A stretch of DNA of 64,000 bases from Xestospongia bergquistia (taxonomy: Eukaryota; Porifera; Demospongiae; Haplosclerida; Petrosiidae), in NCBI GenBank assembly GCA_963965975.1, contig OZ014411.1, positions 9,487,501-9,551,500 on the forward strand, written 5' to 3'. Positions 4,536 to 37,200 of the stretch are shown piece after piece. Below the pieces are notes generated by a model. It was not told the DNA's origin. It did not search any database and was given only the letters and a program-made list of their open reading frames with translations. Numbering within the stretch: position 1 is the first letter of the stretch; each line of letters opens with the position of its first letter. Position numbers and translations under genes: made by a program.

Positions 4536-4572
<37 letters not shown>

Positions 4573-14200: not shown

Positions 14201-14399
14201 TGATCTTGTCCATAGCTAACTCCACTCCACTCATAGTAAGCATGTCGCACTCGTTTAGATCTCTGTATGGACAAGGAAAAAACCCGAGGAAACGAAGAGA
14301 ATGTTTAACATCTTCTGATGTACAGTTATACGAAATATGGTGGGAAATACTGCTCGTTAACAGTACGAACAACACACACCAGGAAAAAAGTGTCTTCAT
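8273..14399 (-). CDS. GABA-B-like class C GPCR, 15 exons, intact
   Basis: Exons in transcript order: 14399-14130, 12702-12571, 12420-12250, 12025-11918, 11774-11709, 11663-11481, 11424-11134, 11056-10837, 9883-9730, 9673-9529, 9471-9364, 9288-9151, 9042-8710, 8659-8531, 8389-8273. Joined they give 2565 nt in frame, 854 aa. Residues 1-19 form a signal peptide. About 20-480 is a Venus-flytrap ligand-binding fold; the exon 3 product with YPYFYATIPND and FSWRRVGIL matches the GABA-B receptor pattern. Seven membrane helices span about 497-770, with the IKASSP loop after TM1 and NWRIYRIF after TM3, both GABA-B hallmarks. Exon 14 (774-816) is an alpha-helical coiled coil, as used for subunit pairing in GABA-B receptors. 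The likely role is a G-protein-coupled receptor for an amino-acid-like ligand; the ligand is not predictable. The first intron (1.4 kb) could hide a small exon. Confidence 0.88.
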
Positions 14400-14829
14400 G
14401 TTTTTACGTTTTCGTTGTATGACCGGATGAGGAGGAGACTACCACCCGCAGAGGATTAGCCTGAAAGTAGTGGAGACTGATAACGATGATAAGTACGGTA
14501 CTAGTTTGGACAGTGGATACATTCTTCCAGGCACGATTAATCTCTACTAAAGCTACACTTTAAAAGGCCTATCTCATTTAATGGCTGAAAATGACAACAG
14601 GACCAGATCACTTTAACTGACCTTGGTTAGCTAGTATGTCGGAAATGTTTTCTCATTCACCTGAGAACACATTGCAGAGGACCACTGGAATAGCTAAGCA
14701 TATTAAAAGCAGACTCGAGTTTGCTGTAATAATAATAATAATAATGAATTATCCTGAAGCTAAAGTGTCACCTTTAATAATGCAATTTTATCATCTATAT
14801 CTTTATAAAGGATTTATACCACTTAACTA
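14400..14829. other. Upstream region of GABA-B-like gene 1
   Basis: The slightly more GC-rich stretch 14400-14520 matches the sequence upstream of the second GABA-B-like gene (38390-38520), including a shared CCGGAxGAGGAGGAGACTAC segment. It probably contains the promoter or 5' UTR of the gene starting at 14399. No TATA box is obvious. ORFs in 14636-14830 look spurious. Confidence 0.5.
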
Positions 14830-14835: not shown

Positions 14836-15000
14836 GGTATATTCACTACTGCTCATTACCTAGTTTGGCTGCACAAAAAACTATTATATATACCTGTCAA
14901 ACCATTCTGTTATATGTCTGTATAATTATATCAAATTCACACCTTGCAGTGAAGAAAATAGAGCCAACAAATGTAAAAGTAGACTAATAAGGAGAACAGG
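14836..15000. repeat. ~165-bp dispersed repeat, copy 1
   Basis: This segment, from GTATATTCACTACTGC to the AATAAGGAGAACAG end, recurs at 18736-18900 with small changes. It contains no ORF. In both places it adjoins a rearranged gene fragment, so it marks a duplicated junction block. Confidence 0.75.
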
Positions 15001-15039
15001 TATAAGAGAAGTAGAGAGTAGGTGGAAAAATACATTTGA

Positions 15040-15440
15040 AAAGACCCCTACCACCTATCATTGACGGGTGTGGCTTACACAAAAAGTCTTCAGGAATTAG
15101 TCTTTATAGCAACATAATTCATGACACAGCTCTATATCCCACATTTGATGTGTTCTCATTCCAATACTAGGTATCATCATTCCCATACCTGGAGTATTAC
15201 TAACACTTTCAGTTCCAGATTAGGGTTATGTAGTAAATTTATTTCCTCCATTTTTATGTTCTCCTCATAATCTAAATTTTTAGTATTATTCAGCAAATTT
15301 ACCTATTAATATTTTAATAGGTATTGGAGTCTGACTAATGATCTGGAAACTCATAAAGTAATAATAATACTGACTCATTTTAAAAATATAGTTTCCTTTT
15401 CCCACAGCATAAAGTTATATTTCGCACAAGGAAAAACAGC
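15040..15440 (+). pseudogene. Fused GH3 and Frizzled-like fragments
   Basis: Positions 15040-15100 match the end of GH3 exon 2 (codons for PYHLSLMGVAYTK, compare 41740-41800 on the minus strand). From about 15105 the sequence switches to the Frizzled-like gene: intron text, the acceptor CCAATACTAG (15161-15170), and the exon coding for PGVL…VPD, where a TAG replaces the TGG codon. The same two-gene fusion is seen at 20430-20860. Neither part is coding. Confidence 0.75.
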
Positions 15441-15459
15441 AGTCTTACTACCATAAGAT

Positions 15460-16605
15460 CAAACCATCAACGCAAAACTTATAATTGTACCACTCTACTT
15501 TTTGTACCTAACATAACAAGCATCCAAAACATCACTCAATTGATGTATACGAATATTTTAAATGTTTTCTTCTTATACATGCATGGCATCTAAACCTAGC
15601 TTGGACCAAATAAAAGCCTTACTAGTCTTTATACATTATAAAGGTGTAGGTATTTAAATAAACTTGTAGAATTGAACGATTTAAGCAAAATTTATAAAAT
15701 ATCATTTGTCAAATTCTTTCAACAGGGTTATCCCTACTGTACTACTGCACCATTTATGTTATTGCAAGTTAACTTGTCCTGCTTATATTAGGTCATCTAA
15801 TAGTTAATTTGTATTGTTTTTCCAAAGATCATTAAACAGTTTTTATTGACAGTTTACTCTTTTCTATGAAAACATAGTATGTTTACTTATGATAATATCT
15901 GTTACAATTAAAACAGATACTTCCACAATAACAGTTATTGTATGGTAAAGTAGAATAATAGCCAAGAAATAACAATTATGTAGTCTATTGAACTTCCAAC
16001 TTTGTTTGTTTCTGAAATAAACTTCACATATGTACTTACAATGATAATATAATATTATTCTCATGGTCTGTATGAAAAGAAGACACAGTAATAACATATC
16101 TGTCCTGTTATTTCTCTGTGTTGGTTTGAATCATTATGTTAACTATATACCATTTTTGATAAAGAAGATCTAATTCTTTTCCATATAAGATGGTGTACCT
16201 TTAGTTTAAACTTATCATTTGAATTATGTCTTCAGTTATATAGTTGTTTTATAATATGAAAATATATTGTGTTAGGAAACTGTTGTATCTACAGTAGATT
16301 AATGCTAAACAACATATAATTTCAAATCCTAATATTTGTCATGTGAGTACAATTCATAATATCTTTGATGACATTATACTATCAAGTTACACTGTTGAAG
16401 CCTTTTCGATGCTTATTTTCCTAATATAGAAGAGCATCAAAAATAGCTTCAAAAAATACTGTCATAATGGACAGTTGTTTACAAAATTCTTTTGTGGTAA
16501 TTTTACGGTAATGTCTGGTCCAACTAGAATATATAGATGATACCGCTCATATATGAACAGATAGACAAAAGACAAGATTCTTAGAAGCAAATTAGCTATT
16601 CAAAT
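15460..16605. repeat. ~1.1-kb segment, copy 1 of 3 (upstream of the beta-helix pseudogene)
   Basis: The sequence from about 15460 to 16600 recurs at about 20880-21690 and 22010-23165. All three keep features such as CAACAGGG(C/T)TATCCCTACTG, CTTTTCTATGAAAACATAG-like text and ATGATAATATAATATTATG. Copies 1 and 3 end at the start codon of a beta-helix gene. An ORF at 15864-16097 (minus) lies in this repeat and has no recognisable domain. Confidence 0.75.
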
Positions 16606-18490
16606 ATGAATAAGACTATGCTTTCTGTTCTCTGGTTTCTCTTACTAGTGTCCTGTTCAACATCAAATCTGTCTCATATTCATTCATTAAACAAACCTGG
16701 TGATCTAAACAAATACATCTGTGATCCAGATCATCCTCTTCTAACAAACACTCAGCTAATCCTCTCTCCTAATGTGAATCACATCCCGTCTTCAACTTCA
16801 TTTTGTTTGGTGAGTAACATATTAAATATCACTTTACGTAGTACATCAATAACTCCTGCTATTATAACTTGCAGACATTATAATAATAGTTATGAATATT
16901 GTTGGGTTTGGTTTTTATAATATTAGTGAGTTGATGATTGAAAATGTACATATAACACAGTGTGGAGGACCTATGCCATCAACTAGTACTCTATATCCTA
17001 ATGATACAACTTTCTATTTTTATGAGAGTCAATCAGTGACATTGTTTATCAGTTACTCCTCTTATATCATGTTGTCTGGGGTTAATATTAACAAATACTA
17101 TAGTTTTGCTATTCTTTTAATTAATATCAATAACACAATACTACCCTTAATAATGTCAACATCACCTCTGCATCTGGCAGTGCTCAGTGTTATAAAAACG
17201 TGGCTCCCAGTTGTGGTGGATCAGGACTTATATTGTACTTTAGTAATTTTGACAATAGAATAGGATTATTAGAAGCACATGTGTTTGTAAAAAATACGGT
17301 TGTAGAAGGCAATCGGAACATTGTAACGTATACTGACATTAACATTGCAGCTCAAACTAAAGAGCCTAAACCAATTAGTGCATTTGCAGCTGGTATGACA
17401 GTTATCTTTAGCCTAGGAAACTACAGTGCTAATGTACTATTGTCACATGGATATTGGCATGAAGGTGCGGGTGGTGTCTTTGATGGTTTAGCAATTATTT
17501 TCAATAATGCACCATTAAGAAATACTTCTGTTACAGTTACTAGCTCCTATTTTAACCACAACATGATTAATGGAATAATTGACAAAGTTTGAATAGGTTG
17601 TTTAGTCACTACAACCTTTAACATTGACAGTACCCATCATGCACCATGGAATATATTAACTATTTCACATAGTCACAATAGTGATTCATATTTTGATTCC
17701 TATACTAATAATGATTTCAACTCTCATATTACTACAAATCATTTTCAACTCTCATATTACTACAAATCATTATAATCACTCAATTATATATATTATTACA
17801 TCAACTAATGCATCTGTTAATTTCAAAATACACCTAGATCATTTAGAATATGAGCAAATATACGCCGGAATACGAAATCCATTTATCCTCTCAGAATCAA
17901 AAGGCCATAAAAATTTAGAAATCAGTTTAGTCTAAATCTTTATAATGTATATTCAAGCATGCCTTTAATAATTGCTCTTAATTCTGCCATAATGGTGTTT
18001 GTAAGTGTAAATTCTGTTTATGGAGAAGGTAGTCTTTTTAAACAAATAACAGGCTCAGTAATACAAGCATATAACAGTGACATTCATTTAAATGGTACAC
18101 TTATTTTTAATAATAACAAGGCCAGTCATAGAGCTGCTATCAGACTTGATTCATCATCACATCTCTTTATTCATGAGTTAACTAATGCATCTTTTATTAA
18201 CAATCATGCTTACTTTTATGGTGGTACAATTTACTCAGATAAGGAGATAAAGTTTCCCAAAACAAACCCACTATGTTGTATTCAAGTAGTAAGTCATAAC
18301 ATTTCTCATTTAAATGCTACATTGTTTTTTAAAAAAAACACTGCCCAATTGGCTGGAAATTCCGTCTACATATCTCTATTGTATGACTGTCAACAGTTGT
18401 ACTTAAAAAAATAAATTCCAGTAATGTATATAAAGCATTATTTCACTTTGATGTCAAAAACAATGATCATTGGTTCACTGAAATATCTGC
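16606..18490 (+). pseudogene. Beta-helix membrane protein, frameshifted and truncated copy
   Basis: This is a close paralogue of the intact gene at 23166-26915, beginning with the same signal peptide (MNKTMLSVLWFLLLVSCSTS). A 1-nt gain near 16892 breaks the frame after NNSYE. Further lesions include an in-frame TGA near 17590, a duplicated segment at about 17720-17770, loss of bases after ISLV near 17930, and a shift near 18410. Similarity ends abruptly at about 18490, so the Cys-rich and membrane part is missing and is replaced by an intron fragment of a GABA-B-like gene. It could only make short N-terminal fragments. Confidence 0.87.
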
Positions 18491-18499
18491 TGGTATGTT

Positions 18500-18720
18500 T
18501 TTGAAGTTTTGCATAACAGGAAGTGAGCTTTTTTTAGGTAGTAGTTATCTATTTATCTTTCCTGACTATTCAAAGTTACAAGAAAGATGATAAAGTGAAT
18601 TAACCCTTTTTATATACCAATATATATGTGTAAATGAATTTGGAAAAGTAAAGGCAAGAAAAAAAGAAATGGAAATCAAATGAAGTCTGTTGTAACAACT
18701 CAGAAATTTGTAAGACTTAA
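18500..18720 (-). pseudogene. Scrap of GABA-B-like intron 1
   Basis: This matches the first-intron sequence of the GABA-B-like genes (compare 27700-27870 and 37400-37565), including TGATAAAGTGAATTAACCC and GAAGTCTGTTGTAACAACT. It is fused directly to the truncated beta-helix pseudogene on its left and the 165-bp repeat on its right. It has no coding content. Confidence 0.6.
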
Positions 18721-18735
18721 CTTGAAAAATAATAT

Positions 18736-18900
18736 AGTATATTCACTACTGCCCATTACCTAGTCCAGCTGTGCAAAAAACTATTATACCTGTCAAACCA
18801 CTTTGTTATATGTCTGTATATAACAAAGTCAAACAAACATTGCAGTGAAGAAAATAGAGCCAACAAATGTAAAACTAGACTAATAAGGAGAACAGCTAAG
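18736..18900. repeat. ~165-bp dispersed repeat, copy 2
   Basis: Second copy of the block at 14836-15000, differing by scattered substitutions and a short indel. Confidence 0.75.
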
Positions 18901-19729
18901 AGGAGAAGATTAGGATCTCTACTTTACTTACAGTATCACTACTACCTGCTGCTGTTATCATAGGGGTAGGAAGGGGGGGGGGGGGCATGAGGAGCTGAAG
19001 CCCCCCTGATTTGCACTCAAGACTATGTACACAATAACCTTATTGTGTTAGTTTGTGTACATTAACAATCAATCACCACATTATTGTGTGGTGAACTGAT
19101 GCTACCTTCTGTAAAATTAATTACTATAACAAAATTATTAATAGAACAGAATGCACTTTTTCATTCTTACTCCAACTATAAAATTACCTACAAAGTACTA
19201 TGACCCAAGAACAACTAAACCATGTCATGCTGTTACATACACATAAGGACCGTATTGATAACATGAACTTATTAGAAATAGCTAAAGAGTTTGTTCCCTT
19301 TAACGACAGACGAATTAATTTGTTTGGTGATTTTTGATGTTTAATAAAATAATGCAACTAAATATAAGGTCATCCCTCCCAACTTAAACTTCATTCCTAC
19401 CCTCCTGACTGTTATAACACTTCATTTACTGCTTCTAAATGTTTGGTTACAGCAATTACTATCAGTCACCATATTCTAATGTTATTACTATAGCTATTAA
19501 TAATAACACATATTGGCTGAGTAAGTAATCATGGTACTCTGTAGGAAATGTCATTTTCATCTTGTATTAAATCTAATAGAAACAAAAAACTAAAGGCAAT
19601 CATTAGTATTACTAGTATATCTAATAAGGATATAAGTATGTAGAACAAACTATCAGCCATTCTGACTTATTCTAATTTTCAGTTTAATTAAAATTAATTC
19701 ATATATGTTACTTTTCCTTAATTACAACA
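18901..19729. other. Non-coding stretch with a 13-base G run
   Basis: No gene is recognised. Positions 18973-18985 are an uninterrupted run of 13 G, unusual in such AT-rich DNA. A short GTTATTGT…ACAATAAC-type inverted motif occurs near 19035-19085. The rest is AT-rich spacer. Confidence 0.55.
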
Positions 19730-19771
19730 TATACAGTCAAATGGAAACTATAGTTTCCATTTGACTGTATA
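19730..19771. repeat. 42-bp perfect palindrome
   Basis: The two 21-bp halves are exact reverse complements with no spacer, centred between 19750 and 19751 on CTATAG. It sits next to the only long Frizzled-like fragment in inverted orientation, so it may mark a fold-back rearrangement junction. No transposase or direct repeats are seen beside it. Confidence 0.97.
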
Positions 19772-19789
19772 AATTATAATTATATTATA

Positions 19790-20145
19790 CAAAAGATTGT
19801 TGACTACTACAGTGATTACAGTAAACATATAGTGTAACTTCCTGATCAAATTTATAATTTGATGTATGATTAGCTCATGCAGTGAAATGTACCAGTAAGT
19901 CATAAATCTATATGGAAGGACTTTTTTCTGATATTGTTTAACTGTTAAGGGAAACATAATTTTATAGAATATTGAAAAAACATGAAAATTATCAATTTGT
20001 GGAAAAATCATGGATAAAATTCAAAGAGACAGATCAAAAGAAAGACACATAGTATTTGTTTCCCTATAATACAATAGTCTATAATGCAAAAAATGTACTA
20101 GATCAAACATTGAGCATAACATGTTCCATTGACTTTAATAAATTG
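19790..20145 (-). pseudogene. Inverted, internally deleted Frizzled-like fragment
   Basis: Read on the minus strand it begins (about 20145-20105) with the Cys-linker exon (codons for QFIK then VNGTCYAQC). It jumps to the end of the TM2 exon (GACTATTGTATTATAG then the donor-like GGAAACAAATA), and later shows the TM3-4 exon (FSIFYKIMFPLTVKQYQ) around 19905-19990. Whole exons between these are missing and the parts are in different frames. Confidence 0.72.
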
Positions 20146-20249
20146 AATATTTTAAAACATAGATGATTTCAGTCTTATTATCAATACATGTACTTATGAG
20201 TTGACATAATCATCAACATTGAATATTGTAATAGTTACATATATTTACT

Positions 20250-20510
20250 ATTGTAGGACTTGGAGCCATGTTTGATATGGATTTAATTCAGAGAATAGGT
20301 GAAATCACTGCAGATGAAGGTCAGCCATTACATAATATTATGAAAACTCAATTCAGTGGTTCAAGTAGTGAGCCTGGTGGTCTTAATTGTTTCTCTCCCA
20401 ATGTTAATCTTTTTTGAGATCCACAATAGGGACGTGGAAAATAGACATTTTGAAAAGACCCCTACCACCTATCATTGATGGGTGTGGCTTACACAAAAGG
20501 TCTTCAAGAA
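20250..20510 (+). pseudogene. GH3 glycosidase exon 2 fragment
   Basis: This matches exon 2 of the GH3 gene (41738-42005, minus strand) but lies on +. It starts with GLGAMFDMDLIQRIGEITAD and includes the LNCFSPNVNLF segment. It then has TGA in place of the Arg codon of FRDPRWGRG and a TAG two codons further on. No other GH3 exons flank it; it runs directly into a Frizzled-like fragment. Confidence 0.85.
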
Positions 20511-20860
20511 ATAGATTTTTAGCAACATAATTCATGACACAGCTCTATATCTCACATTTGATGTTGTCTCATTCCAATACTAGATATCTTCATTCCCATA
20601 CCTGGAATATTACTAGCACTTTTGGTTCCACATTGGGGTTATGTAGTAAATTTATTTCCTCCATTTTTATGTTCTCCTCAACATCTAAATCTAGAGTATT
20701 ATTTAGCAAATTTACCTATTAACATTTAAATAGCTATTGGAGTCTCATTGTTTGTTCTTATGTTCTGGTTGCTCATAACGTATGTAATAATAACGATATT
20801 GACACATTTTAATATTTAGTTTCCTTTCCCACAACGTCAAGGTATATTTTGCATCAGGAA
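20511..20860 (+). pseudogene. Frizzled-like penultimate exon fragment
   Basis: It contains the intron end and acceptor near 20582, the codons for FIPIPGILLALLVPHWGYVV, and the end of the exon (ATTGGAGTCTCATTGTTTGTTC). The stretch after YVV diverges by one base, so the frame is lost. No other exons are attached. Confidence 0.75.
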
Positions 20861-20879
20861 AAACAACAGTCTACTATCA

Positions 20880-21684
20880 TATGATAAATCCATTAACATA
20901 AAGCTTACAACTGTACCACTTTACTTTTAGTACGTACACATTGGAACATAACAAGCATCCAAAACATCACTCAATTGATATATACAAATATTTCAAATGT
21001 TTTCTGCTTATACATGCATGGCATCTAAAACAAGTTTCTGACCAAATAAAGGCATGGTAGTTTTAATACATTATAAAGGTGTAGGTATTTAAATAAACTT
21101 GTAAAAATGAAAGATTTGAGGCAAAATTTATAAAGCAACATTTATTATATTCTTTCAACAGGGCTATCCCTACTGTACTACTGCAGCATTTATATTGTTG
21201 CAAGTTAACTTGGCCTGCTTATATGAGGTCATCTAATAGTTAAATTTGTACTCTTTTTCCAAAGATCATTGAACAGTTTTTATTGACAGTTTACTCTTTT
21301 TTATGAAAACATAGTATGTTTACTTATGATAATATCTGTTATCAATTAAGACAGATACTTTCACAATAACAGTTATTGTGTAGTAAAGTAGAATAACTGC
21401 CAAGCAGTAACAATTAGGTAGTCTATTGAACTTCCAACTTTATTTGTTTCTGAAATAAACTTCACATATGTACTTACAATGATAATATAATATTATTCTC
21501 ATGGTCTGTATGAAAGAAGACACAGTACTAACATATCTGTCCTGTTATTTCTCTGTGTTGGTTTGAATCATTATGTTAACTATATACCATTTTTGGTAAT
21601 GAAGATCTAACTAATTCTTTTCCATATAAGATGGTGTACTTTTAGTTTAAACGTATCATTTGAATTATGTCTTCAGTTATGTAG
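20880..21684. repeat. ~1.1-kb segment, copy 2 of 3 (3' part missing)
   Basis: Same segment as 15460-16605 and 22010-23165. In this copy it is cut off at about 21684 and followed directly by another Frizzled-like exon fragment instead of a beta-helix gene. Confidence 0.7.
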
Positions 21685-21975
21685 TTGTCTCATTCCAATA
21701 CTAGATATGTTCATTCCCATACCTGGAGTATTACTAGCACTTTGGTTCCACATTGGGGTTACATAGTAATGAATTTCCTCCATTTTTATGTTCTCCTCAA
21801 CATCTAAATCTAGAGTATTATTTAGCAAATTTACTTATTAACATTTAAATAGCTATTGGAATCTCATTGTTTGTTCTTATGTTTTGGATACTCATAATGT
21901 ATTAATAACAATACTGCATGACTCATTTTAATATTTAGTTTCCTTTCCCACAACATCAAGGTATATTTCACATCA
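21685..21975 (+). pseudogene. Frizzled-like penultimate exon fragment
   Basis: This repeats the fragment at 20565-20850 (acceptor near 21705, PGVLLAL codons, last-exon start near 21955). It has a single-base loss before GTTCCACATTGGGG and another after the YV codons. It is non-coding. Confidence 0.72.
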
Positions 21976-22009
21976 GTAAAAACAGCAGTCTACAATCATA
22001 AGATCAATC

Positions 22010-23165
22010 CATTAACATAAAGCATATACAACTGTACTACTCTACTTTTAGTATGTACTCATTAGACCATAACAAGCATCCAAAACATCACTCAATTGAT
22101 ATATATGAATATTTCAAATATTTTCTTGCTCATACATGCATGGCATCTAAACCTAGCTTTGGACCAAATAAAGACCTGCTAGTTTTTATACATTATAAAG
22201 ATGTAGATGTTTAAATAAACTTGTAAAAATGAAAGATTTGAGGCAAAAATTGTAAACAACATTTGCCATATTCTTTCAACAGGGCTATCCCTACTGTACT
22301 ACTGCAGCATTTATATTGTTGCAAGTTAACTTGGTCTGCTTATATGAGATCATCTAAAAGTTAAATTTGTATTTTTTTTCCAAACATCATTAAACAGTTT
22401 AAATTGACAGTTTACTCTTTTCTATGAAAACATAGTATGTTTACTTCTGATAATGTCTGTTATCAATTAAGACAGGAACTTTCACAATAACAGTTATTAT
22501 ATGGCAAAGTGGAATAATTAACAAGCAGTAACAATTAGGTAGTCTATTGTTTGTTTCTGAAATAAAGTTCACATATGTACTTAATATAATGATAATATAA
22601 TATTATGTTAATGGCCTCTGTGAAAAGAAGACATTGTACTAGTATATCTGTTCTATTTAATGTCTGTCCTGGTTCGAAAATTAACAACTAATCAATACAT
22701 GAACTATATCCCATTTATGATAAAGAAGATCTAATTCTTTTCCATATAACATGGTGTACCTTTAGTTTAAACTTATCATTTGAATTGAGTCTTCAATTAT
22801 ATAGTTGTTTTATAATGTGAAAATATATTGTGTTAGGTAACTGTTGTATCTACAGTAGATTAATTTTGAACAACATGCAATTTTAAATCCTAATGTTTGT
22901 CATGTGAGTACAATTCAAAGTGTCTCTGATGTCATTATACTATCAAGTTACCCTGTTGAAACTTTTTGATGCTTATTCTCCTAGCATAAAATAACATCTA
23001 AATTAGCTTCAAGAAATACTGTCATAATGGACAGTTGTTTACAAAATCCTTTTGTGGGACTTTTGCTGTAATATCCTGTCCAACTGGTATATATAGATGA
23101 TACTGCTCATATCTGACCAGATATACACAAAAGAAAACTCTCGTAAGCTAATCAGCTATTCAAGT
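22010..23165. repeat. ~1.1-kb segment, copy 3 of 3, including the beta-helix gene promoter
   Basis: Third copy of the segment, ending at the intact beta-helix gene. A TATATATAG motif at about 23088-23096, 70 bp before the start codon, is a plausible TATA box; the pseudogene has AATATATAG at the matching place (about 16527). Confidence 0.6.
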
Positions 23166-26100
23166 ATGAACAAGACTGTGGTTTTTGTGCTGTGGTTTCT
23201 CTTACTAGTGTCCTGTTCAACATCAAATCTGTCTCATATTCATTCATTAAACAAACCTGGTGATCTAAACAAATACATCTGTGATCCAGATCATACTCTT
23301 CTACCAAACACTCAGCTACTCCTCTCTCCTAATGTGAACCACATCCTGTCTTCAAATTCATTTTGTTTGGTGAGTAACATTTCAAATATCACTTTACGTA
23401 GTACATCAATAACTCCTGCTGTTATAACTTGCAGACATTATAATAGTAGTTATGAATCTGTTGGCTTTGGTTTTTATAATGTTAGTGGGTTGATGATTGA
23501 AAATGTCCATATAACACAGTGTGGAGGACCTATGCCATCAACTAGTACTCTATATCCTAATGATACAACTTTCTATTTTCATAAGGGTCAGTCAGTCACA
23601 TTGTTTGTCAGTTATTCCTCTCATATCATGTTGTTTGGGATTAATATTAATACCTATTTTGGTTTTGCTATTCTTTTAATTAATATCAATAACAATGTCA
23701 CACTTAATAATGTCAACATCACTTCTACATCTGGCAGTGCTCAGTGTTATAAAAAAGTGGCTCCCAGTTGTGGTGGATCAGGACTTATATTGTACTTTAG
23801 TAATTTGGATAAGAGAATAGGAGTATTAGAAGCACATGTGCTTGTAAACAAGACAGTTATAAAAGGCAATTGGAACTTTGTACCGTATACTGACATTAAC
23901 ATTGCAGCTCAAGTCCATACTAAAGAGCCTAAACCAATTAGTGCATTCGCAGCTGGTATGACAGTTATCTTTAGTGTAGGAAACTACAGTGCTAATGTAC
24001 TATTGTCACATGGACATTGGAATACAGATACAGGTGGTGTCTTTGATGGTTTAGCAATTATTTTCAGAGATGCACCAGTAGGAAATACTTCTGTTACAAT
24101 TACTAATTCTTCTTTTAGCCACAACACGATTCATGGAGATTTTGAAATGGTTAGAATAGGTTGTTTAGTCACTACAACCTTTAATGATGGAGGTACCCAT
24201 CATGCATCATGGAATATATTAACTATTTCACATAGTCTCATTAGTGATTCATATATTGATTCCTTTACTATTAATGATTTCAACTCTTATATTACTTCAA
24301 ATCAATATAATCACTCAACTATACATATTATTACATCAACTTATGCCTCTGTTAATCACAGAATACATCTAGATCATTTAGAATATGCGCAACTATACGC
24401 CGGAATACGAAATCCATTTATATTGTCAGAATCAAAAGGGCATAAAAATTTGGAAATCAGTTTAGAATCTCTAAATCTTCATAATGAATATTCAAGCACG
24501 CCTTTAATAACTGCTCTTGATTCTGCCAAAATGGTGTTTGTAAATGTAAATTCTGTTTATGTTAATGGAGAAGGTAATCTTTTTAAACAAATAACAGGCT
24601 CAGTAATACAAGCATATAACAGTGACATTCATTTAAATGGTACACTTATTTTTAATAATAACAAGGCCAGTCATGGAGCTGCTATCAGACTTGATTCATC
24701 ATCACATCTCTTTATTCATGAATCAACTAATGCATCTTTTATTAACAATCATGCTTACTTTTATGGTGGTGCGATTTACTCAGATAAGGAGACAAAGTTT
24801 CCCAAAACGAACCCACTATGTTGTATTCAAGTAGTAAGTCATAACATTTCTCAATTAAATGCTACATTGTTTTTTAAAAATAACACTGCCCAATTAGCTG
24901 GAAATTCCGTCTACATGTCTCCATTGTATGACTGTCAACAGTTGTACTTAAAAAAAATAAATTCCAGTGAAGTATATGAAGCATTATTTCACTTTGATGT
25001 GAAAAACAATGATCATTGGTTCACTGAAGTATCTTCAGTAGCTGTTAGCACTTATCGTTGCAATATCAATAACATTAGCAATAATAATGACCAGATCAAA
25101 GTATATCCTGGTGAAACAATAACAATTGGTCTACAAGCTTGTGATATGAATGGTAATCCAACTTATGCTCAAATTTTTACCAGATTAACTAAAGTTGGGA
25201 AACGATGGCATCATAATCATAGTCATCATTTCTCAGAGGACATAACACACCTGTTACCTGTTATGCAACAAATTCAAACTGTCTACACCAATTGTACACC
25301 TTTACATTTTACTATATTTTCACAAAGTATTAGTGATATAATGTATTTACACTTTGAAGTCTTGGGATATATTCCTACAGCAAAAGTTAAACTTATTTCA
25401 AAACGTTGTCCACCAGGATTTATTTATAGCAGTGATAGCAAAGCATGTGTATGTAGTTCATTTGTAAAAAGATTTAGGATTACACAATGTAACATTAATA
25501 CATCAGCTATAAATATTTCACCTCAATCATGGCTTGGTATTATAAATAATGGTACTATCATTGCTTATACTGAACACTGTACTCCTGATTACTGTCTACC
25601 AAATACAACTATTAATATAAGACAGTCTGACGTCATGTGTAGAGGGAATCGTATGGGATGGCTTTGCGGTCAGTGTAAAGAAGGCTATAGTATTGTTTTA
25701 GGGAGCATTGATTGTTACCAGTGTTCTAATACACTACATACAGCACTTGCTATATCATTTGGTATACTAGGCGGTATAGTGTATGTATTAGTGTTGTTTA
25801 GTTTGAGATTGACAATTGATTTGGGTACACTTGGGGGCTTTATATTTTGGTTAAATATTATATGGCCATTTTCTGAAGTGGACATCAAGAACACACCTTT
25901 ACAATATATGGTGTATTTGCTTACTTCCATCAAATATCAATGGAATATACCTCTGTGTATAACAAGTGACTTAAATGAACTTGGGAAGACTGCAATATTA
26001 TATTTTTTTTCACTTTACTTTTGGTTAATTGTTGCTATCATTGTTCTCTTAAGTAAACATTCAACAAGATTTGCTAACCTTATTGTTAGGTCCTCTGTGC

Positions 26101-26915
26101 AAGTACTGGTAACATTGATGTACATCTCTTACTCAGATTTGTTATCCATCTCATTGCTTGTTCTCACACCAACATTAATTTATTTTAATAGCACTAATAG
26201 TTCTGGTAAGTTATTGGTTTGGTATAGAGATGGCAGTGTACTTTATGGTCAAAATCCTTACCACATTGTTTTATTATGTGTTAGTATTGCAGCACTATCA
26301 CTTTTTATTATACCTTTTACATTAGTTGGATTATTTGGAGTTAAAATGTTGAGGATTGCTTGTATTTCAAAATACTTTCGTCCATTTATTGATGCTATTC
26401 ATGGACCTTACAAGGACAACTTGAGATACTGGTTTGGTTTGAGGTTGATAGTCCTATCTCTCATCTATATTATCACTGCTATATTTCAAGGTAGCAATAT
26501 GACATTACAGCTTTTACTGATTATATTTGTTCTGGTATTTTATACTATTGCTCAAACTTTTGTCTTACCTTACAAGAACAAGATATTGAATATACTTGAA
26601 TTATGGTTTATGGTACTTCTTCTGGTCAATTTTATTATAAATCTTCCTTACAATGTATCAGATTATCATACTTCAATCAATATTGTGACCACACTTGAAA
26701 TTGTTCTTTGTTTTGTCACTTATTGTATTATCTTGTTATATCATGGATATATTTCAATGAGTCATCTGCGTTGTATTAGGAAGTGTGTACAATATCTCAA
26801 AATTACTAACTGTATTTTATATAAAAGGATCAAGAAACTAGTGAAGAGTGATAATAATAATGAAGTTCTTGTACCATTACTAAGAGATGAAGATTCTTTT
26901 GAGTATGAAGAATAA
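23166..26915 (+). CDS. Large membrane protein: GGAI-type beta-helix ectodomain plus ~9 TM helices
   Basis: One uninterrupted exon of 1249 aa. The ATG at 23166 is chosen because a signal peptide follows at once (VLWFLLLVSCSTS); an upstream in-frame ATG at 23097 would bury it. About residues 25-740 are rich in N-glycosylation sites and beta-strand/turn repeats. FINNHAYFYGGAIYS combines the FxxN and GGAI signatures of parallel beta-helix repeats, as in chlamydial Pmp proteins and other pectin-lyase-fold surface proteins. About 748-855 is Cys-rich (GWLCGQCKEGYS, CYQCS). About 856-1215 holds some nine hydrophobic helices, then a ~35-residue charged cytosolic tail. The likely role is a cell-surface receptor, adhesin or channel-like protein. 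I do not recognise a named family for the whole architecture. Single-exon structure contrasts with its many-exon neighbours. A truncated paralogue lies at 16606-18490. Confidence 0.85.
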   Translation: MNKTVVFVLWFLLLVSCSTSNLSHIHSLNKPGDLNKYICDPDHTLLPNTQLLLSPNVNHILSSNSFCLVSNISNITLRSTSITPAVITCRHYNSSYESVGFGFYNVSGLMIENVHITQCGGPMPSTSTLYPNDTTFYFHKGQSVTLFVSYSSHIMLFGININTYFGFAILLININNNVTLNNVNITSTSGSAQCYKKVAPSCGGSGLILYFSNLDKRIGVLEAHVLVNKTVIKGNWNFVPYTDINIAAQVHTKEPKPISAFAAGMTVIFSVGNYSANVLLSHGHWNTDTGGVFDGLAIIFRDAPVGNTSVTITNSSFSHNTIHGDFEMVRIGCLVTTTFNDGGTHHASWNILTISHSLISDSYIDSFTINDFNSYITSNQYNHSTIHIITSTYASVNHRIHLDHLEYAQLYAGIRNPFILSESKGHKNLEISLESLNLHNEYSSTPLITALDSAKMVFVNVNSVYVNGEGNLFKQITGSVIQAYNSDIHLNGTLIFNNNKASHGAAIRLDSSSHLFIHESTNASFINNHAYFYGGAIYSDKETKFPKTNPLCCIQVVSHNISQLNATLFFKNNTAQLAGNSVYMSPLYDCQQLYLKKINSSEVYEALFHFDVKNNDHWFTEVSSVAVSTYRCNINNISNNNDQIKVYPGETITIGLQACDMNGNPTYAQIFTRLTKVGKRWHHNHSHHFSEDITHLLPVMQQIQTVYTNCTPLHFTIFSQSISDIMYLHFEVLGYIPTAKVKLISKRCPPGFIYSSDSKACVCSSFVKRFRITQCNINTSAINISPQSWLGIINNGTIIAYTEHCTPDYCLPNTTINIRQSDVMCRGNRMGWLCGQCKEGYSIVLGSIDCYQCSNTLHTALAISFGILGGIVYVLVLFSLRLTIDLGTLGGFIFWLNIIWPFSEVDIKNTPLQYMVYLLTSIKYQWNIPLCITSDLNELGKTAILYFFSLYFWLIVAIIVLLSKHSTRFANLIVRSSVQVLVTLMYISYSDLLSISLLVLTPTLIYFNSTNSSGKLLVWYRDGSVLYGQNPYHIVLLCVSIAALSLFIIPFTLVGLFGVKMLRIACISKYFRPFIDAIHGPYKDNLRYWFGLRLIVLSLIYIITAIFQGSNMTLQLLLIIFVLVFYTIAQTFVLPYKNKILNILELWFMVLLLVNFIINLPYNVSDYHTSINIVTTLEIVLCFVTYCIILLYHGYISMSHLRCIRKCVQYLKITNCILYKRIKKLVKSDNNNEVLVPLLRDEDSFEYEE

Positions 26916-27229
26916 GGGCAAAACGTTTGCAGACGATGTCATGTTATATTAGTTTTGTATTTAATATAATTATTATTTTTAATATAAAAAAACACATGTA
27001 AATAGAATTAATTTTGTTGTGTATACAGAAATCCCTATGTCTGTGTTTTTTGTTTTGATTATTAATAAAAATGTTTGTTTTAGAAATACAATTACAATGA
27101 TAACACTTCTTTAATACTGACCACTGTATATAAAATATGAAATCTTGGAGTACAGATATTTACTTCACTTGTGCTCAATATTACTAAGAGGTACAGTTAT
27201 AGTAAGTTATTAAAGCTATCATTAAAATT
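26916..27229. other. 3' flank of the beta-helix gene
   Basis: AT-rich 3' UTR-like sequence with an AATAAA-type signal at about 27063. No gene is seen. Confidence 0.5.
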
Positions 27230-28405
27230 ATTATTATTTGCAAATTAAAAGACTTCAAGGTGTGTAGAAACAAACTAAGCTGGTAGTTAAAAGTTTATTA
27301 ACTTGTAACAACAAGATATTCACTTTTGCATCTTTCAATTTTTTCTGGTGATGTTTTAAAAGAGTACAGATCAAAAACAATCATATACTGTTATTATTTC
27401 TTGGTAAACTATTTGACAATAGCTCAGAAACCTCTATGCATTCAAAGACAAAAACAAATGACTAAAGATATAAATTGATTTACATAACACCATCATATAA
27501 TTTAACTACATGACTATATTATGTATGTGGAACATGTGCAAAATATAACTACTGACTAAACAATAATTACTTCCCGTTTTGTAAAAACTTCAAAAAAACA
27601 AACCAGCAAGCAGGTAAAACATACTGTCATATACAAAACAAGTAATATCTTCAAATTCCAAAGCAAAATAGAGTAGATACCTATGTGAAACTATGCCTAT
27701 TCCTTGGCTATTCAAGGTTACGAGAAAAATGATAAAGTGAATTAACCCTTTTTATATACCAATGATACATATATATGTGTAAATGAATTTGCAAAAGCAA
27801 AAGCAAGAAAAAGAGAAATGGGAATAAAATGAAGTCTGTTGTAACAACTCATATGCCATAGAGATTTGTAAGACTTGAAAAATAGATCTATCATAATTTT
27901 TCACTAGATAGACAACTTTTGAAAAATTAGCCTCTATGTGATTCAGTTACTGTGAATTGAAAGTTTAAGGCACACTTTGCAAATTAATGTGTGAAATGTT
28001 TTAACTTTCAAAATAAACTTGACACATTATAACACTGACAGATAGAGATGAAACAGTAAACATATAATCAACAACTGAAAACAACACTATTTGAACTATT
28101 ACACATTAAATAACATTGAGAGTGTATGTACACTTATGCATTAATAACATACAAATCATGTAAACATTCATTTTAATTATTATTTCAAATTAAATTTAGT
28201 GCATGTTTATCATTGCATAGTCAATAGCAAATGTACTACACTATAATTATATGGTGACAAAAATTAAATATGGCTTTTTCTCATCATTTATAATCCACTC
28301 TCAACATTCCATCTACTTTGTTTGACTTGTAGTTGAATTATGGTGGTCACTTGGCCCTGTTATATAATCTAACCTGTACAGGATCATTAACAAATACAGG
28401 CAATA
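27230..28405 (-). pseudogene. GABA-B-like receptor, third copy, mostly deleted
   Basis: The exon 4 region is recognisable at about 27325-27440 (codons around LFDNSSE/SFKTSPE, frame broken). Intron 1 sequence follows from about 27600 to 28330. The end of exon 1 is at about 28375-28405 (codons for LPVFVNDPVQ on the minus strand). Exons 2 and 3, present at 36081-36537 in copy 2, are deleted. The remnant is joined to a GH3 fragment at its upstream side. Confidence 0.75.
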
Positions 28406-28429
28406 CATTACCATTTAGATTATGGATAG

Positions 28430-28745
28430 AGCTGTTTCTAACTGACAGCTAGTATGTTGGTGATTATCGATGGGATACCAATGTAGTTAGACAATAGTGA
28501 CATTTGCTAATGGACTAACAACAGCAAGTTTCTTAGCTTTCAAAATATTAATTGGCAATTTGTTTTGAGCATTCTTTAATAACACAATAGATTCATGTAA
28601 AGACAATAGATTAGTTTTAGCATTTTCATTTATATCAAAGTGACCTGCTTCAATATATTGGTAAAGTACAGAACCATGTGGATCAAAATTACTGAGTTGA
28701 ATACGTAGATAAGAGGTCTATACTACCTCTTGAATAATTGTCTAT
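28430..28745 (-). pseudogene. GH3 glycosidase exon 3 fragment
   Basis: On the minus strand this matches part of GH3 exon 3 (40440-40740), with recognisable pieces SLHESIVLLKNAQNKLPI and KKLAVVSPLAN. A stop interrupts it near 28720, and it diverges after the N-V-T segment. Only about 100 codons of a ~790-codon gene are present. Confidence 0.82.
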
Positions 28746-29750
28746 GGAAGTTAAAACAAGCTTTATATCACAATAATTCAGTTGACAGTGAAAAATGAAA
28801 GTAGATGCTTTAGTTCATTATAGTAGCTTCTTATTTATCAGAATTAAAATTGTGATTTCAGTCATTTCTCATTATTAAAGTACTATATTATCCCATATAA
28901 TAACATGTTGTTGAGGTATATAATAATGATAATAGCAGAATTGATAGGGTTTTCTTTTTCAGAGAGGAAGTAAAAAGATGATATGCTGAGTTAATTGTGA
29001 GTTTCGTTCACATTTGGTGGTATTTAGTCCAAAATAGGATGGAATAAGATACTCCTCCACTAACAATGTGTCACAAAGGGTACATAATCTGGCATTTAAT
29101 TTGGTCTTGAAAATATCCTATTTCTGCAGCAAGTGACAGATAATCTCCCACTTACATACAACAGTCATTATATTTCACCTCTTGGTAATCAGATTAGCAT
29201 ATACATATCTGAAAATGCTTTCAGTAACCCCATATACAAGAATCATGCATATTCTAAAATTGTAGCTAGTAACAATTTATGAAACAACACATTTGAATCA
29301 TGAAATTCTTTATAATATATAGAACGTGCATGCACATATCCCTACCATGGCAGCTTTCCTGATTGATCTCAATATATATTTCTGTGGATATATATTTGTC
29401 ACCTGTTTGTCTCTTCTTGTTCTATTTGTATTGCAATTCCTTCATTTATAGTATTCATATTTCACTGCACATTTACATTATAATTGTAATACAGTTTTAT
29501 TGAAAGTCTGTATCTATCAACATGATTTGCAAAAAGGAACCGTTATTTTTAAAAAATATCCAAAAACATTCAGTTGATATGTACACAAGTTACACAACCA
29601 TACATTTTTCACTGGGTGTTTACTAAATTATATCTCAGTTTAGAAGATAACTTGAATGCAAATCTGGTCATGTGGTGGGAGCAGCTCTCGTTGCACAATT
29701 AGGGAATTGGCTACAACTATATATGTGACTTCATTTGCAATAAGGCACCA
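28746..29750. other. Intergenic
   Basis: No ORF or duplicate of a neighbouring gene is recognised in this kilobase. Confidence 0.55.
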
Positions 29751-30799: not shown

Positions 30800-31747
30800 G
30801 CTATTGGAGATATTAAGACACATGGGAATCACAAACCTTCAAACTTAATTCTTAATATATGAATACATGTCATATATATTTTCATCTTAACAAAACCCAA
30901 GACTTGATGTTTAAGTAGTTATTTCTAGCATATACAGGGCTTATTTATGAATGACACAATTTTGCATTTTTGTGTTAAAAATTTAACATTTTAGGTTTAA
31001 CATTTTGCATTGAATTTATACCATAATAAGTTTGAATCTACACTATCAAATTCTTTCTTGAAGTTAATGAAACATGTGAATATTGTCTTTTATGCCACGA
31101 AGTGAACAGTACCAGGATGCTAAAGGCAGTTATGAATTCATTAAAAACGTGATTGTTCTTGCATAGTAAATTACATTGGAGGGCGATACTCTTATAATTG
31201 AGAAGTGAAAGTCTCTAAAATTGTCTGATTTATATAGGAATTAGTAAAACAACTGAACTTTATTGTATAATTATTGTAATTTACATTCATTAGGCTTTAA
31301 AGCTAACACTCATTGGTACGTTGCTGGATTTAGTTGTTTTAATGTTACATTATTTATAATCTAGACATTTCCAATCTTATCTGATAATAATCCTTGTTGT
31401 CAATACAAGACACTTCATTGACTGTGTTTACATGCAGGTACCTGTTTCCTCAAATGTTATTGTAGTTTTTGCAAAAGCAACGCAGAAAACAGTCAACTAT
31501 GACCCTGTATAGACATTGTCAGTACAAACTTTCAGAATCCATCATTTTCTGTTTTTATAAATAAAAATATACATCAACTTTTACACTATTGTATTATTCA
31601 CACATCTATCTAATCGAAAGGCAGTGTTTATAATATGATCAATTGAGTAGTGAAGGTAATGAACTCAACATTTTTAAAGTCATACAACAGGAATAAAAAG
31701 TATATAGAATTAAAAGTGAGTAAATAGCAATAATATAATATAAACAT
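30800..31747. other. Intergenic, 3' flanks of two genes
   Basis: From about 31260 the sequence resembles 7740-8270 (the region downstream of GABA-B-like gene 1), so it belongs to the GABA-B duplication unit. No coding potential. Confidence 0.55.
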
Positions 31748-34159
31748 TCAAGTCATTGTGTCTGGACTGTCTCTTGTATGGTAGTCAGTGTTTATGTCAA
31801 TAATTGACACAGTGTTCTCATTATCTTCAGTATGATTAGAAACAGTAGCCAAGGTTTCCTCAATCTAAATATTTGTATAATGAATATTAATTTCAAAGTA
31901 AAAGCATCCACAGAAAGTTTTGATACTTTCAGTGTATGTTACTAGCTTAGGGATATACAAGTTAAATATACATTTTTTGATGTATAAATAATCAAGGAAC
32001 TCACTTTTATTATTGATGACTTCAATTGAATTATTTCCTCACATTTTTGGAAATAGACTTGCTTTTTAGATAATGTTCTTTGTAGTTGTGCTTCCTGTTT
32101 TGCTTTCTTCAGGTCATTTGCAATGGCTACAAACTGCATGAAGCAATTACACAATATTAATAGTAATATGTTATACATTTTACCTTTGGTAAGTACATTG
32201 CAGTTAATAAGAATGTACCAATTAATGCTACTAAGCATGTGTAAAGCATAACACCATATTCAAGTCTGAATGAAGAAGTAAAGAGTATGCTTATGATAAA
32301 TGAAAATAAAACAACAAAAAATGTAAAAGTAACAATTATTAGACTAGAGAGTTCTCCTTCCTTCTTGAAATAGGAAATGATTTTGAGATTATGAAGTGAC
32401 AGTACTAAAATTGTTATGAACAGAATTAATACATAAATATGTATTGTCAGATCCCATAAATCAGATTGACTTAAGCAATAATATTCTATCTTTGTTGAAT
32501 CCTGGACATTCTGTAAAAAGAGACATTAATCAATATAAATGAAGAGCTAAAGAAACACGGATTAAGATTGTAATTATAGATAGTACTCACTGCATCTGGA
32601 CAATCATCTTCTATATATTGTGATGCGATAAGGTGTGGACTGACAACCATTCTTGAGACAACAATTATAATTACAGGAAACACAATAATGATTATTAATA
32701 ATAACAACACCCAGTCAGAGAGATACCTCTAAAAGCAAAAAATATAATTTCTAAACAGTAAACAGTAAGAGATATCATCAAAGTACAGTACTATGAATTA
32801 CAAATGCACTTTTATCATATATACTTACCCTGTGTCTAATTCTTGGATTACGAAATATGCGATAGATTCGCCAATTTTTAACCAATAAAGTAGAAAAAAA
32901 TGTTGTGACTGATACATACCATAAACTATAGGATGCCTACATAATGGCAAGAAATATTATTGAAACCAAATTAAAAGAACAACACTAGACATACATCACA
33001 GAGAGGAGGTATTGTTTTTTTATAGTTTTCCTTGTTTCCCATGTAAAAAATTACCAGTAAAATTAAACCTTCAACAAACATGCAACAGCACGACAAATTA
33101 AGAATAATGTTGAATTTTGGAGATGAAGCTTTGATGTGCCTAGTACAGTACAAATATAGTAATTAGGTATTATCATTACATTGCTAAAAACTAACTTGTT
33201 TTGTCTCCATATAAACGTAACTACTAATAGAGCAAGACCAGCAAAAATTCCAACTAAATTCCATATTGCCATTATAACTACAGTTGCCAAGAAGCTCATT
33301 GGTACAAATGAACAGTTATATGGACTACCATCCGTAGGTAAATATCCACCTGTATTAATGATTATATATAATGGTTATTGTAAACATTGTAGTTATGGTT
33401 ACATTACACATGTAAACATAGATGAATAATCATAGATTCATAAACTACAAGAATTAGTGACAGTATCTGTGCTGTGCATACATCATTTTTTTAAATACAA
33501 ACATATTGTTTATATATCATTACAAGAATATAAAAATTGATATTATTAAGACAGTGCATATAATGCAAAGGACTTTTTATTTAATAGGAATATTAAGTAA
33601 TATTGCTTACAAATAATTAAAAACAATTGTACGTAATTTTAATAAATTAACCAATGAGAAAAACAACATTATATGTGTGAAACCACAGAGGCATTGAATT
33701 AAGTTCACTTTGAGTTACTATGTATTGTCATCACAGATATATGATACTAAATTGAAACTTTAAACATGACAGAATTCCGAAAAAATCTCAAGTTTTATAA
33801 AATAGAGTCAAAAGGAGCTAAGCTTGCATTAAGCATAGAAAAAAGGAAGGTATAACACCCTTATCCTTAATATAACCATCATATTTCCAGCCTTTTTCTC
33901 TCTTCAACATAATCACCTTGTTGCTCTTCTCTAACTACCAAATATTAGCTATTTTTATATCTTGTTGTAAATTATGTGTCAATTGGGACTACATGGTTGG
34001 GATATACCATTAGTACATCCTTTTACACTCAAGTAACTACTACAAGTCTGTGTGTGATTTATCAATAAGTCCTAATGTTTCCAGTATATTGCTTGTTTCT
34101 CATAATTGTTGCTTTATGTTATTACAGTTGCTATCTACAGAACTAAATTAAGTCAACCC

Positions 34160-34215
<56 letters not shown>

Positions 34216-37200
34216 AAATGCTTAATGATACCAATATAAATAACTGTAAAATTGAACATTCTTCTTGAGGAGGCAAACATTGCTACTTCTGGAACTTATA
34301 TAATTTGTCACAGAAGCAACACATTTTCATTTATAGATAACAAAAATGAGTAATACCAGAATAACTATTTCTGAAGCTTAAAATAGAGAATATAGCAGAG
34401 CCAGTCAACCTTAAAAATCACATTACTCATGAAACAAATGAGCTGCATCACAACTAACTCTACTGGGAATGTTAGCTGTAACCACATATCTTTAAATTAC
34501 TCTATGTAAATTTGAACATACCTTTCCATGAAACGTCACAGCAATGAGAGCTATTTTTACAAACATTGTAAACTAGTCTTTGCTCTCCTTTCGAATTAAA
34601 ACTTCCCAAAATACATTCTGTCATTCCTTTAACAAAAGACACATACATTTTGCTGACAAAAAACTTACCAGATAATTGTGTCACTAAACCGTGACCATCA
34701 TTACTTCTACTAGTAGAATTATGAAAGTTTTGAATACCCTAATATGAAAGAAGTAAACTATAATATATAGATATGTAAAATCAACTAAGTGAGACAGTAA
34801 AACCTAAGTACTTACTGCAAGTCCATTATAAGGACTAAGTGAATTCTTTAAACTATCTTCAAGAAGTTTGATAAGACGTGGATAAAACCATGGATTATCA
34901 ATAATGAAAAAGATGTCATCATTCTGAAATTCATTCTCAATTTTAGTAAGACTTGCATTCCATGTCAGAGAAAAGCAGTAGTTGCATCATATGCATTTAA
35001 TAACTTAGAATGAATAATAAGAGAATAATAATCCTCCATTGTTATATCAGCTGACATATTCACTACTGTATTATAAAATATTTTAGAAAGAATTTCTTTT
35101 GGTTCCTGTAGAAATTATAGATCATTAAAGTAAATTGACAAATTTTAAGGCGAAAACTGACATTTTTCTTATTCGTGTTATATGAAAAAGTATCCACAAA
35201 AAGTGTAGAATTGATAGCTTGTAATATTTCTTCATTAGTACAATTGGAATTGGACCTAATCTCTTCCAAGTACCACCACCTAGTGCTATACATACCAGGT
35301 AAGATCCAAACATGGTCTGCAGTAGTAAGTTTGAGATGGTATGCCTAAAATGATATTATTATGCTAAAATATTTCAGATTATAATAACTTACAACACAAA
35401 ATACAGTTCTAGCATGTAATTCTCCAAGCATCAGTAAAAATATTCGGATATCTTTAGCCTGAACATTGAGAAAGATACTTTAATAAAAACTCATCACAAC
35501 AAATATTTTATTTGCAAATTAAAAGATATCAATTAAGGTGTGTGTAAAACAACTAGTTTATTAACTTATAACAAGACACTCACTTTTGCCTCTTTCAAAT
35601 TTTTCTCTGGTGATGTTTTAAAAGAACCCAGATCAAAAACAGTCATATCGCTATTATTACTTTTTAAGCTCTTTGATAATAGCTCAGCAACCTGTATGAA
35701 TTCAAAGTCAGAGACAAATAACTAAAGATATAAATTGATTTACACAATACCACCATATATCATTTAACTGCATGACCATATTATTGTGGGAACATGTACA
35801 AAATATATAACTATTGACTGAAAAGATGATCACTATCTTGTATTGTACTCAACATTGATATCTAGAAAGTACTACCACTAAGTATCATGGATACAAAAAA
35901 TATCTTCCTGTACATACATAATAATGTAGAACAACATTTTTATAATAAGTACTTAAAAACAGTGCAACACTTAGAAGTATCAATTCTAATGAAAGCCACT
36001 AACATAACTTGCATGGATGTACTATTCTTTAATAAAGTGCATTAATAATTATATTAGTTTTATATATTTTTAGTACTTACTGACACATAGTATTCTTCCT
36101 CTACTGATAAAATACCCACTCTTCTCCAACTAAAGTGTTCTAATAAGTATCTTCTTACTTTATTTATAAAGTGATCATTTGGTATTGTAGCATAGAAATA
36201 AGGGTATCTACTGGTGTCCTCAAGTGACACATCAGTCACTGAATATGATATCTAACAAAAGAGTTCATGAGTTAAATATTTTCATTGAATATATCATTCT
36301 ATGACAATAATAAGTTATTAAGCTCTTACTTTTTCGAGCTATAAGAAATTTAATTTACACATGTGTTAAATTTTAATTTATAAAAAAGCAACATTCCCAA
36401 TCTACCTGTAAAAGATTCAATCTTCCACAAATGTACCCAATACTTTTAGCAATGTTAGGATGATCAGGACCAATAACTCCATGAAAAGGATACTTTGCAT
36501 ATCTCCTTATTATTATTCGATATGGTTCAGTTGGGTCCTATATGTATATAAGAAGCAATATAATATGATGTAAAATTAGATTAAGATTGTTTAACGAGAT
36601 TCAGTTACTGTTTAGAAATGATAACATGTTTTAACATCATCCATTTGTTCTACATGGTGATGCTATATAGTGGACTACCACAGATTCAATAATTACAGGA
36701 TAGTCTGCTTAATTTTGCTTTGTTGTGTGTTCACATTAGAGAGGTTAATACTGTTAGTTTAGTTAACATAACAGTTGTCATATCACATGAGTAAGGGTTA
36801 CAGTGAGTGCATCAGGCTGTGTTGTAGCATACAGTTTCATTCGATTATAATTCATTATATATTTTATATAATACATGTCCCTTCAGCAAACAGAACATCA
36901 AAGCAATGACTTTTATATAGTCAGTTATAACAAAGACATTCTTTTTAGAGCGTTTGTATATTCAATATGAAAATATTTGTAAACATTAATTAGCTATTTT
37001 AACAAACAAATTTGTAGCTTACATTGGTGGATTACTACATAATCCAAAAGTTGTTAAGTGAATAAACAAATAATACAGTGAGTAACAATTCACATGAACT
37101 ATAGATTTTATAGTAATCAATCCACTAATATAAACGACAAAGCGATTGTTAAAATTGATAACTGCTTAATTTTAAAGTGCATTATTATGGGAGTTTTATA

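Follow-up and report, generated by a model that had tools for sequence, protein, structure and literature searches.

An expanded sponge gene family that joins a partly beta-helix-like ectodomain to a predicted nine-helix membrane domain

How animals without adaptive immunity distinguish self, symbiont and prey is an open question, and a long single-exon gene of the sponge Xestospongia bergquistia may bear on it: what kind of protein does it encode, and could that protein belong to a recognition repertoire? The gene lies in a 64,000-nucleotide stretch of contig OZ014411.1 (assembly GCA_963965975.1, positions 9,487,501 to 9,551,500), which we call the window and number from its first letter. Its coding sequence (23166-26915; this and all features of the gene given below are on the plus strand) is a single coding exon, an uninterrupted open reading frame (ORF) of 1249 amino acids plus stop. 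In this it agrees with the original prediction, made from the DNA letters, which placed a signal peptide, an N-glycosylated beta-helix of about 700 residues, a Cys-rich stalk and about nine membrane helices in one exon. A further in-frame ATG is present at 23097; the putative signal peptide begins at the ATG at 23166 (23166-23228, approximately residues 1-21, by hydropathy), where MNKTVVFVLWFLLLVSC forms a hydrophobic segment at the protein N-terminus. The protein has 31 NxS/T sequons, 27 of them before residue 826, so both the secretory start and the glycosylation sites that had been proposed are found. The gene is a member of a very large, apparently undescribed animal family.

The size of the family was estimated by searching the sponge's own genome (146.5 Mb in 21 contigs). 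The C-terminal half of the window protein matches at least 87 places, 49 of which are open frames of at least 1100 amino acids with a match free of stops. Six queries from divergent members gave at least 79, 88, 83, 89, 86 and 79 rows, and the seven C-terminal queries together at least 591; each search scored the best 78-92 of 401-934 candidates, and all of these counts are lower bounds. Merging used 234 of the 591 rows, all of them frames of at least 1100 amino acids without a stop in the match (for three divergent-member queries, only rows judged new and a few repeats), and yields at least 224 distinct places, or 192 without the query from the distant member L054. This figure leaves out stop-bearing and shorter-frame rows, many of which are fragments or decayed copies, and near-identical neighbouring copies within it could be assembly duplicates. 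The searches ignore introns and long frames were chosen, so intron-bearing members appear as short frames and may be under-counted. A neighbor within 30 kb is found for 171 of the 224 places, and the largest arrays hold 15, 14, 14 and 9. The suggestion of an undescribed class survives in that the whole protein carries no known family name, but it is no singleton: its family numbers at least 224 intact-looking places.

Thirty-four loci were fetched for comparison. Twenty-two have one long frame and, aligned to the window protein, make up the 23 members referred to below; L053 and L054 were treated separately, and ten whose frames are broken or shorter were set aside. The 22 paralogs, selected for having such a frame, carry the same unbroken full-length ORF and are likewise hydrophobic at the N-terminus (the start Met being picked by hydrophobicity). 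L053 and L054 align to the family C-terminal profile with hhalign probabilities of 99.7 and 99.0; for each of them, the one reversed and three shuffled controls stay at or below 0.5. By blastp, L054 matches the window protein C-terminus at E = 2e-7. Because none of the 79 places found with L054 coincides with a window-type place, it is these profile and blastp comparisons that link L054 to the family.

What fold does the outer half adopt? A beta-helix is supported for approximately residues 379-666 (24300-25163), rather than for the whole of the roughly 700 residues first proposed. The FxxN and GGAI signatures on which that proposal drew do little individually. Residues 20-742 hold seven FxxN motifs against a shuffle mean of 3.94 (165 of 2000 shuffles reach seven), a count not clearly above chance, and one GGA[ILV], equalled in 44 of 2000 shuffles. 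Taken together as a coil unit, [FY]xxN-x(4,5)-G[GAN][AGS][ILVM], a pattern defined after the sequence had been inspected, they occur three times: FNNNKASHGAAI (24651-24686, residues 496-507), FINNHAYFYGGAI (24738-24776, residues 525-537) and FKNNTAQLAGNSV (24873-24911, residues 570-582). The shuffle mean is 0.010 and none of 2000 shuffles reaches three, and we reject a chance motif as their source. At least three units are present in 18/23 members (one with two overlapping starts), two in 2/23 and one in 3/23; for members with a single unit, 20-28 of 2000 shuffles do as well.

Profile searches point the same way. The TIGR01376 (POMP) repeat scores 24 bits in the window protein (cut-off 15) and matches 20/23 members at E ≤ 0.01; it was the sole match in whole-protein searches of NCBIfam, Pfam, PHROGs and, with phmmer, PDB. 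Chlam_PMP reaches 27.3 bits (cut-off 20.6) for the piece at 24300-25025. Further support comes from the divergent paralog L043, 26% identical overall, which matches PF13229 Beta_helix at 52.2 bits (cut-off 25.9). Its residues 330-610 alone pass for both Beta_helix (32.6 bits) and Chlam_PMP (32.1), and they align to the family profile, with L043 left out, at approximately window residues 379-666 with an hhalign probability of 99.6 (one reversed and five shuffled controls, all ≤0.5). PF13229 finds nothing in the window protein at E ≤ 10, L043 matches no PDB chain at E ≤ 0.01, and residues 20-378 of the window protein have no family match near any cut-off. The latter stretch is the N-terminal ectodomain (23229-24299, residues 22-378), which falls within the fastest-evolving part of the protein.

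These matches place the family beside two known systems. Chlamydial Pmp autotransporters (PF02415, TIGR01376) likewise follow FxxN with a GGA(I/L/V)-type motif 4-5 residues on; in the accessible part of one study, 122 of 214 Pmp FxxN motifs (~57%) have this gap to GGA (PMC11166332). The sponge family is set apart from them by its signal peptide, its sites for N-glycosylation, the Cys-rich stalk and a predicted helical domain of nine transmembrane (TM) segments, and the window protein has no autotransporter beta-barrel match, its C-terminus being hydrophobic-helical instead. From right-handed beta-helix proteins (PF13229) the window protein differs in the attached polytopic domain, and its residues 379-666 are homologous to part of L043. 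Many such proteins act on polysaccharides, and the protein might be a membrane-anchored polysaccharide enzyme or transporter whose beta-helix cuts or holds glycans while the membrane part transports or anchors. We judge this improbable: neither the window protein nor any of its pieces passes the cut-off of an enzyme family, and the ectodomain columns that are invariant, 18 in all, hold Cys, Gly, Phe, Leu, Asn and Thr but nothing acidic or basic.

Between the ectodomain and the membrane lies the Cys-rich stalk (25392-25730, residues 743-855), in which the original prediction is borne out by GWLCGQCKEGYS at residues 831-842. Of the 28 invariant columns in the C-terminal alignment of the 23 members, 11 are Cys, and ten of these are in the stalk. 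DUF7630 (PF24633) has the same Cys-rich GxLCGxC..GY..C..C module, directly before TM1. Its match in the window protein (residues 825-853) is weak: the full sequence scores 8.9 bits and the C-terminal piece alone 14.9, both under the cut-off of 27. The cut-off is passed at three places in the genome, including L053 (27.7) and L054 (27.3), which were fetched on that account and for which hmmscan of the whole proteins gives 21.4 and 21.5 bits. Twelve Pfam families match some of the 23 members at E ≤ 1, and only Chlam_PMP (17/23, best E 0.00011) and DUF7630 (15/23, best E 0.0016) do so in more than two.

How is the remainder arranged in the membrane? TM segments were called from hydropathy averaged over the 23 aligned members, weighted for similarity, which gives eight clear segments and a weaker TM2 at residues 885-905. 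The predicted segments are TM1 (25737-25811), TM2 (25818-25880), TM3 (25971-26051), TM4 (26088-26168), TM5 (26253-26321), TM6 (26427-26489), TM7 (26499-26567), TM8 (26586-26648) and TM9 (26673-26747). We count TM2 as a helix, as the parity of the topology requires, because dropping it puts the highly charged tail outside. The C-terminus is therefore best read as nine TM segments, N-out/C-in, close to what had been predicted. Mean Lys/Arg counts are 1.9 (TM3-4), 6.0 (TM5-6), 1.5 (TM7-8) and 9.7 (tail) on the predicted inside, against 1.4, 1.4, 0.2 and 0.7 in the loops predicted outside; the TM1-2 loop, predicted inside, is two residues long and has neither. All four sequons past residue 1000 (1008, 1011, 1111 and 1163) fall in predicted outside loops. 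The predicted cytosolic parts include the TM5-TM6 loop with KYFRPFIDAIHGPYK (26322-26426) and the tail (26748-26912), which ends in PLLRDEDSFEYEE; PLL occurs in the last 30 residues of 15/23 members.

By sequence, the membrane domain matches no described fold in the libraries searched: no Pfam family scores above cut-off, and there is no convincing match among solved structures. Weak hits to phospho-beta-glucosidases in PDB-sequence profile searches (best E 0.25 and 0.074) were judged chance, and a single-sequence AlphaFold model of the C-terminus, though helical, has a predicted local distance difference test score (pLDDT) of 42.1, too low to interpret. G-protein-coupled receptor (GPCR) families are alike in having a large outer domain and a helical bundle, but nine segments are predicted here, not seven, nine fit the charges, and no 7tm family matches any of the 23 members. 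The main rival to a receptor is a mechanically or ligand-gated ion channel with a TRP- or polycystin-like layout, in which the outer domain and stalk would gate a nine-helix pore. The order of parts, a signal peptide first, then a large outer domain and then nine TM segments, N-out/C-in, would resemble that of fungal TRP-like/Flc proteins, and several conserved polar residues (K941, Q979, H1033, R1093, Q1130 and H1193) lie within predicted TM segments or border on them. Against it, neither PF06011 nor any other channel family matches the 23 members at E ≤ 1, and none appears in the PDB-sequence profile searches; we regard a channel as a real but rather unlikely alternative.

Do the outer and membrane parts evolve alike? 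Among 14 close intact members, 35 pairs have a synonymous divergence (dS) below 0.6, and ratios were taken as mean nonsynonymous divergence (dN) over mean dS. For these pairs the ratio is 0.52 in residues 20-450, 0.28 in 451-600 and 0.42 in 601-742, then 0.30 in the stalk, 0.26 in the membrane domain and 0.41 in the tail (34 pairs). Three sets of close paralogs were drawn from 11 of the 14: four C8 copies, a set with the window gene and a third set. Residues 20-450 versus 856-1200 give 0.91 versus 0.30 (C8), 0.51 versus 0.24 (window) and 0.45 versus 0.23 (third), and 12 of 15 pairs differ between the regions at Fisher p < 0.05 (uncorrected, the pairs not being independent). In residues 190-450 the ratio is 1.14 in the C8 set only, 0.57 in the window set and 0.43 in the third. 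An expanded recognition receptor should show tandem expansion and an outer part that changes faster than the membrane part, and both are found.

Segments of individual members also have conflicting histories. At residues 1051-1249, L027 groups with the window clade (support 0.91); its third-position identity to the window gene is 0.54-0.77 in the earlier blocks and rises to 0.91 and 0.83 in the final two. L030 lies in the window clade for the other three segments and outside it at residues 1051-1249. These conflicts, seen in trees and identity values, are as expected under exchange between paralogs.

On this evidence a lineage-expanded family of cell-surface recognition or adhesion receptors is the reading we tentatively prefer, while holding it somewhat short of probable. 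The protein would be located at the cell surface, where its fast-changing N-terminal ectodomain (approximately residues 20-450) would bind variable ligands, most likely glycans or other molecules on the surface of microbes or neighboring cells. The conserved coils and disulfide-rich stalk may be the scaffold that links this outer part to the membrane. Together with the cytosolic TM5-TM6 loop and tail, the conserved membrane core might relay a common signal inward. A more far-reaching version, possible and more doubtful, is that animal surface receptors of a categorically new kind are encoded here. Each would be a sensor built on a beta-helix scaffold with disulfides and carried by a nine-helix domain that fits no known class. 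Several hundred copies, most of them single-exon, would have diversified through tandem duplication and the exchange of modules between paralogs, and would form one of the main recognition repertoires of an early-branching animal. The known sponge candidates are SRCR and NLR repertoires, and a family of comparable size, with an outer domain that changes faster and a constant membrane core, would be a new one; the tandem arrays and mosaic copies should ease tests of allele diversity and expression.

Several points weigh against the receptor reading. The Chlam_PMP cut-off, passed by the piece, is reached neither by the whole protein, at 8.3 bits, nor by the entire ectodomain, at 15.5, and the score therefore depends on the piece submitted. 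The AlphaFold model of the ectodomain, made with no alignment, is mostly strands but unusable at pLDDT 32.7. Three of the 15 pairs show no significant difference between the regions; ratios up to 1.14 may be a sign of relaxed constraint, and ratios of this kind are also distorted where genes convert one another. The fast part also lies largely outside the stretch for which a beta-helix is supported, because the best-supported coils, residues 451-600, are slow (0.35 in the C8, 0.34 in the window and 0.30 in the third set). Finally, the ligand and signalling roles are proposed from sequence, and other roles also give rise to large tandem families.

Where did the gene come from? Upstream, in tandem, lies a copy of its ectodomain half (16606-18491, plus strand) that has decayed through insertions, deletions, frameshifts and a stop; it ends at approximately residue 624, and the membrane half is absent. 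It belongs to a duplicated block (15154-18488) that shares 86.9% identity with 21688-25034. The block takes in non-coding upstream DNA, where 1245 of 1430 ungapped bases are identical; over 622 codons the intact and decayed copies differ by dN 0.083 and dS 0.100. Because the non-coding upstream DNA is common to both, the upstream copy arose by DNA duplication, and recent copies in the family have evidently spread in this way. Recent retroposition is rejected, since the duplicate carries its non-coding flank, and the suggestion that the lack of introns recorded a local retroposition or lateral entry is not supported. Many members are single long frames too, so intron loss, if any, probably predates much of the family; retroposition predating the family would be compatible with these data.

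If a Pmp-like gene of bacteria had long ago been gained laterally or by retroposition, and membrane helices fused to it later, this would account for the Pmp-type coil motif and for the single coding exon of the members examined as full-length. Such an origin is distinctly improbable given that the window copy spread by duplication with its flank and that the C-terminal half has no relative in GTDB prokaryote genomes, IMG/VR viral contigs, phages or plasmids, nor the ectodomain in IMG/VR, the sole collection scanned for that half; because such scans look for short identical peptides, remote relatives escape them. The decayed copy, as an ectodomain half on its own, also raises the question of whether two genes have been read as one. 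This we consider very improbable, and reject, given the continuous ORF of the 22 chosen paralogs and the long frames at no fewer than 224 places, which agree with the original assignment of both halves to one gene. The upstream copy is moreover decayed, and its membrane half looks as if lost by deletion: homology resumes where 18559-18731 matches 27700-27884, past the end of the intact gene, a weak point in that 18559-18731 also resembles 37411-37571.

Elsewhere in the genome, window-type (minus strand) and L043-type (plus strand) members seem to alternate at G000:C1:10623600-10686350, with same-type copies approximately 20 kb apart, a recent amplification or an assembly duplicate. L043-type frames of 1843 and 1943 amino acids lie at G000:C11:1126574 and C11:1303024, and the match of the latter contains a stop; their lengths suggest variable ectodomain length.

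Similar uncharacterised proteins presumably exist in other animals. We found no earlier description of the family in the literature searched, most subscription papers being outside reach. Neither "pectin" nor "beta-helix" occurs in the main text of a survey of GPCRs (PMC12716839), and none of four terms tried occurs in a gene-family study (PMC6040629). A possible earlier sighting is a table in the accessible part of PMC3386278, which lists an 18-segment putative novel domain cluster with two proteins of pectin-lyase-like fold. The expanded sponge immune receptors SRCR-SF and NLR are alike as tandemly expanded, receptor-like repertoires; the present family differs in its nine TM segments and long single frames, and no SRCR or NLR domain was matched. 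The accessible parts of two studies give 296 SRCR-SF genes (PMC10855680) and 135 NLR and 220 GPCR genes (PMC7308585) for Amphimedon queenslandica, and by these counts a family of more than 200 would rank with the largest receptor families reported there.

Rfam finds no family at 15000-29000, and no tRNA occurs in the whole window. The Frizzled-like, collagen and glycoside hydrolase family 3 genes of the window, described below, are in keeping with animal DNA. The present gene is flanked by two copies of a minus-strand multi-exon gene (8019-14404 and 31457-38390), 68%-92% identical in blocks and evidently a segmental duplication; we take this gene to resemble class C GPCRs, with no Pfam match for the three exons tried. 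Repeated blocks at 813-7732 include, at 7199-7636, a membrane region like that of Frizzled (PF01534, 24.4 bits against a cut-off of 22.3), and related DNA recurs at 15.1 kb and 20.5-22 kb. A glycoside hydrolase family 3 gene lies on the minus strand at 39409-41247 (C-terminal domain 143.8 bits), with a related short stretch at 28407-28712. Collagen-like tandem genes occupy 48320-49911, 57487-59063, 59615-60831 and 62623-63407; PF01391 scores 25.0 bits for 48916-49392, under the cut-off of 27.2, and passes it with 27.7 bits for 57875-58825.

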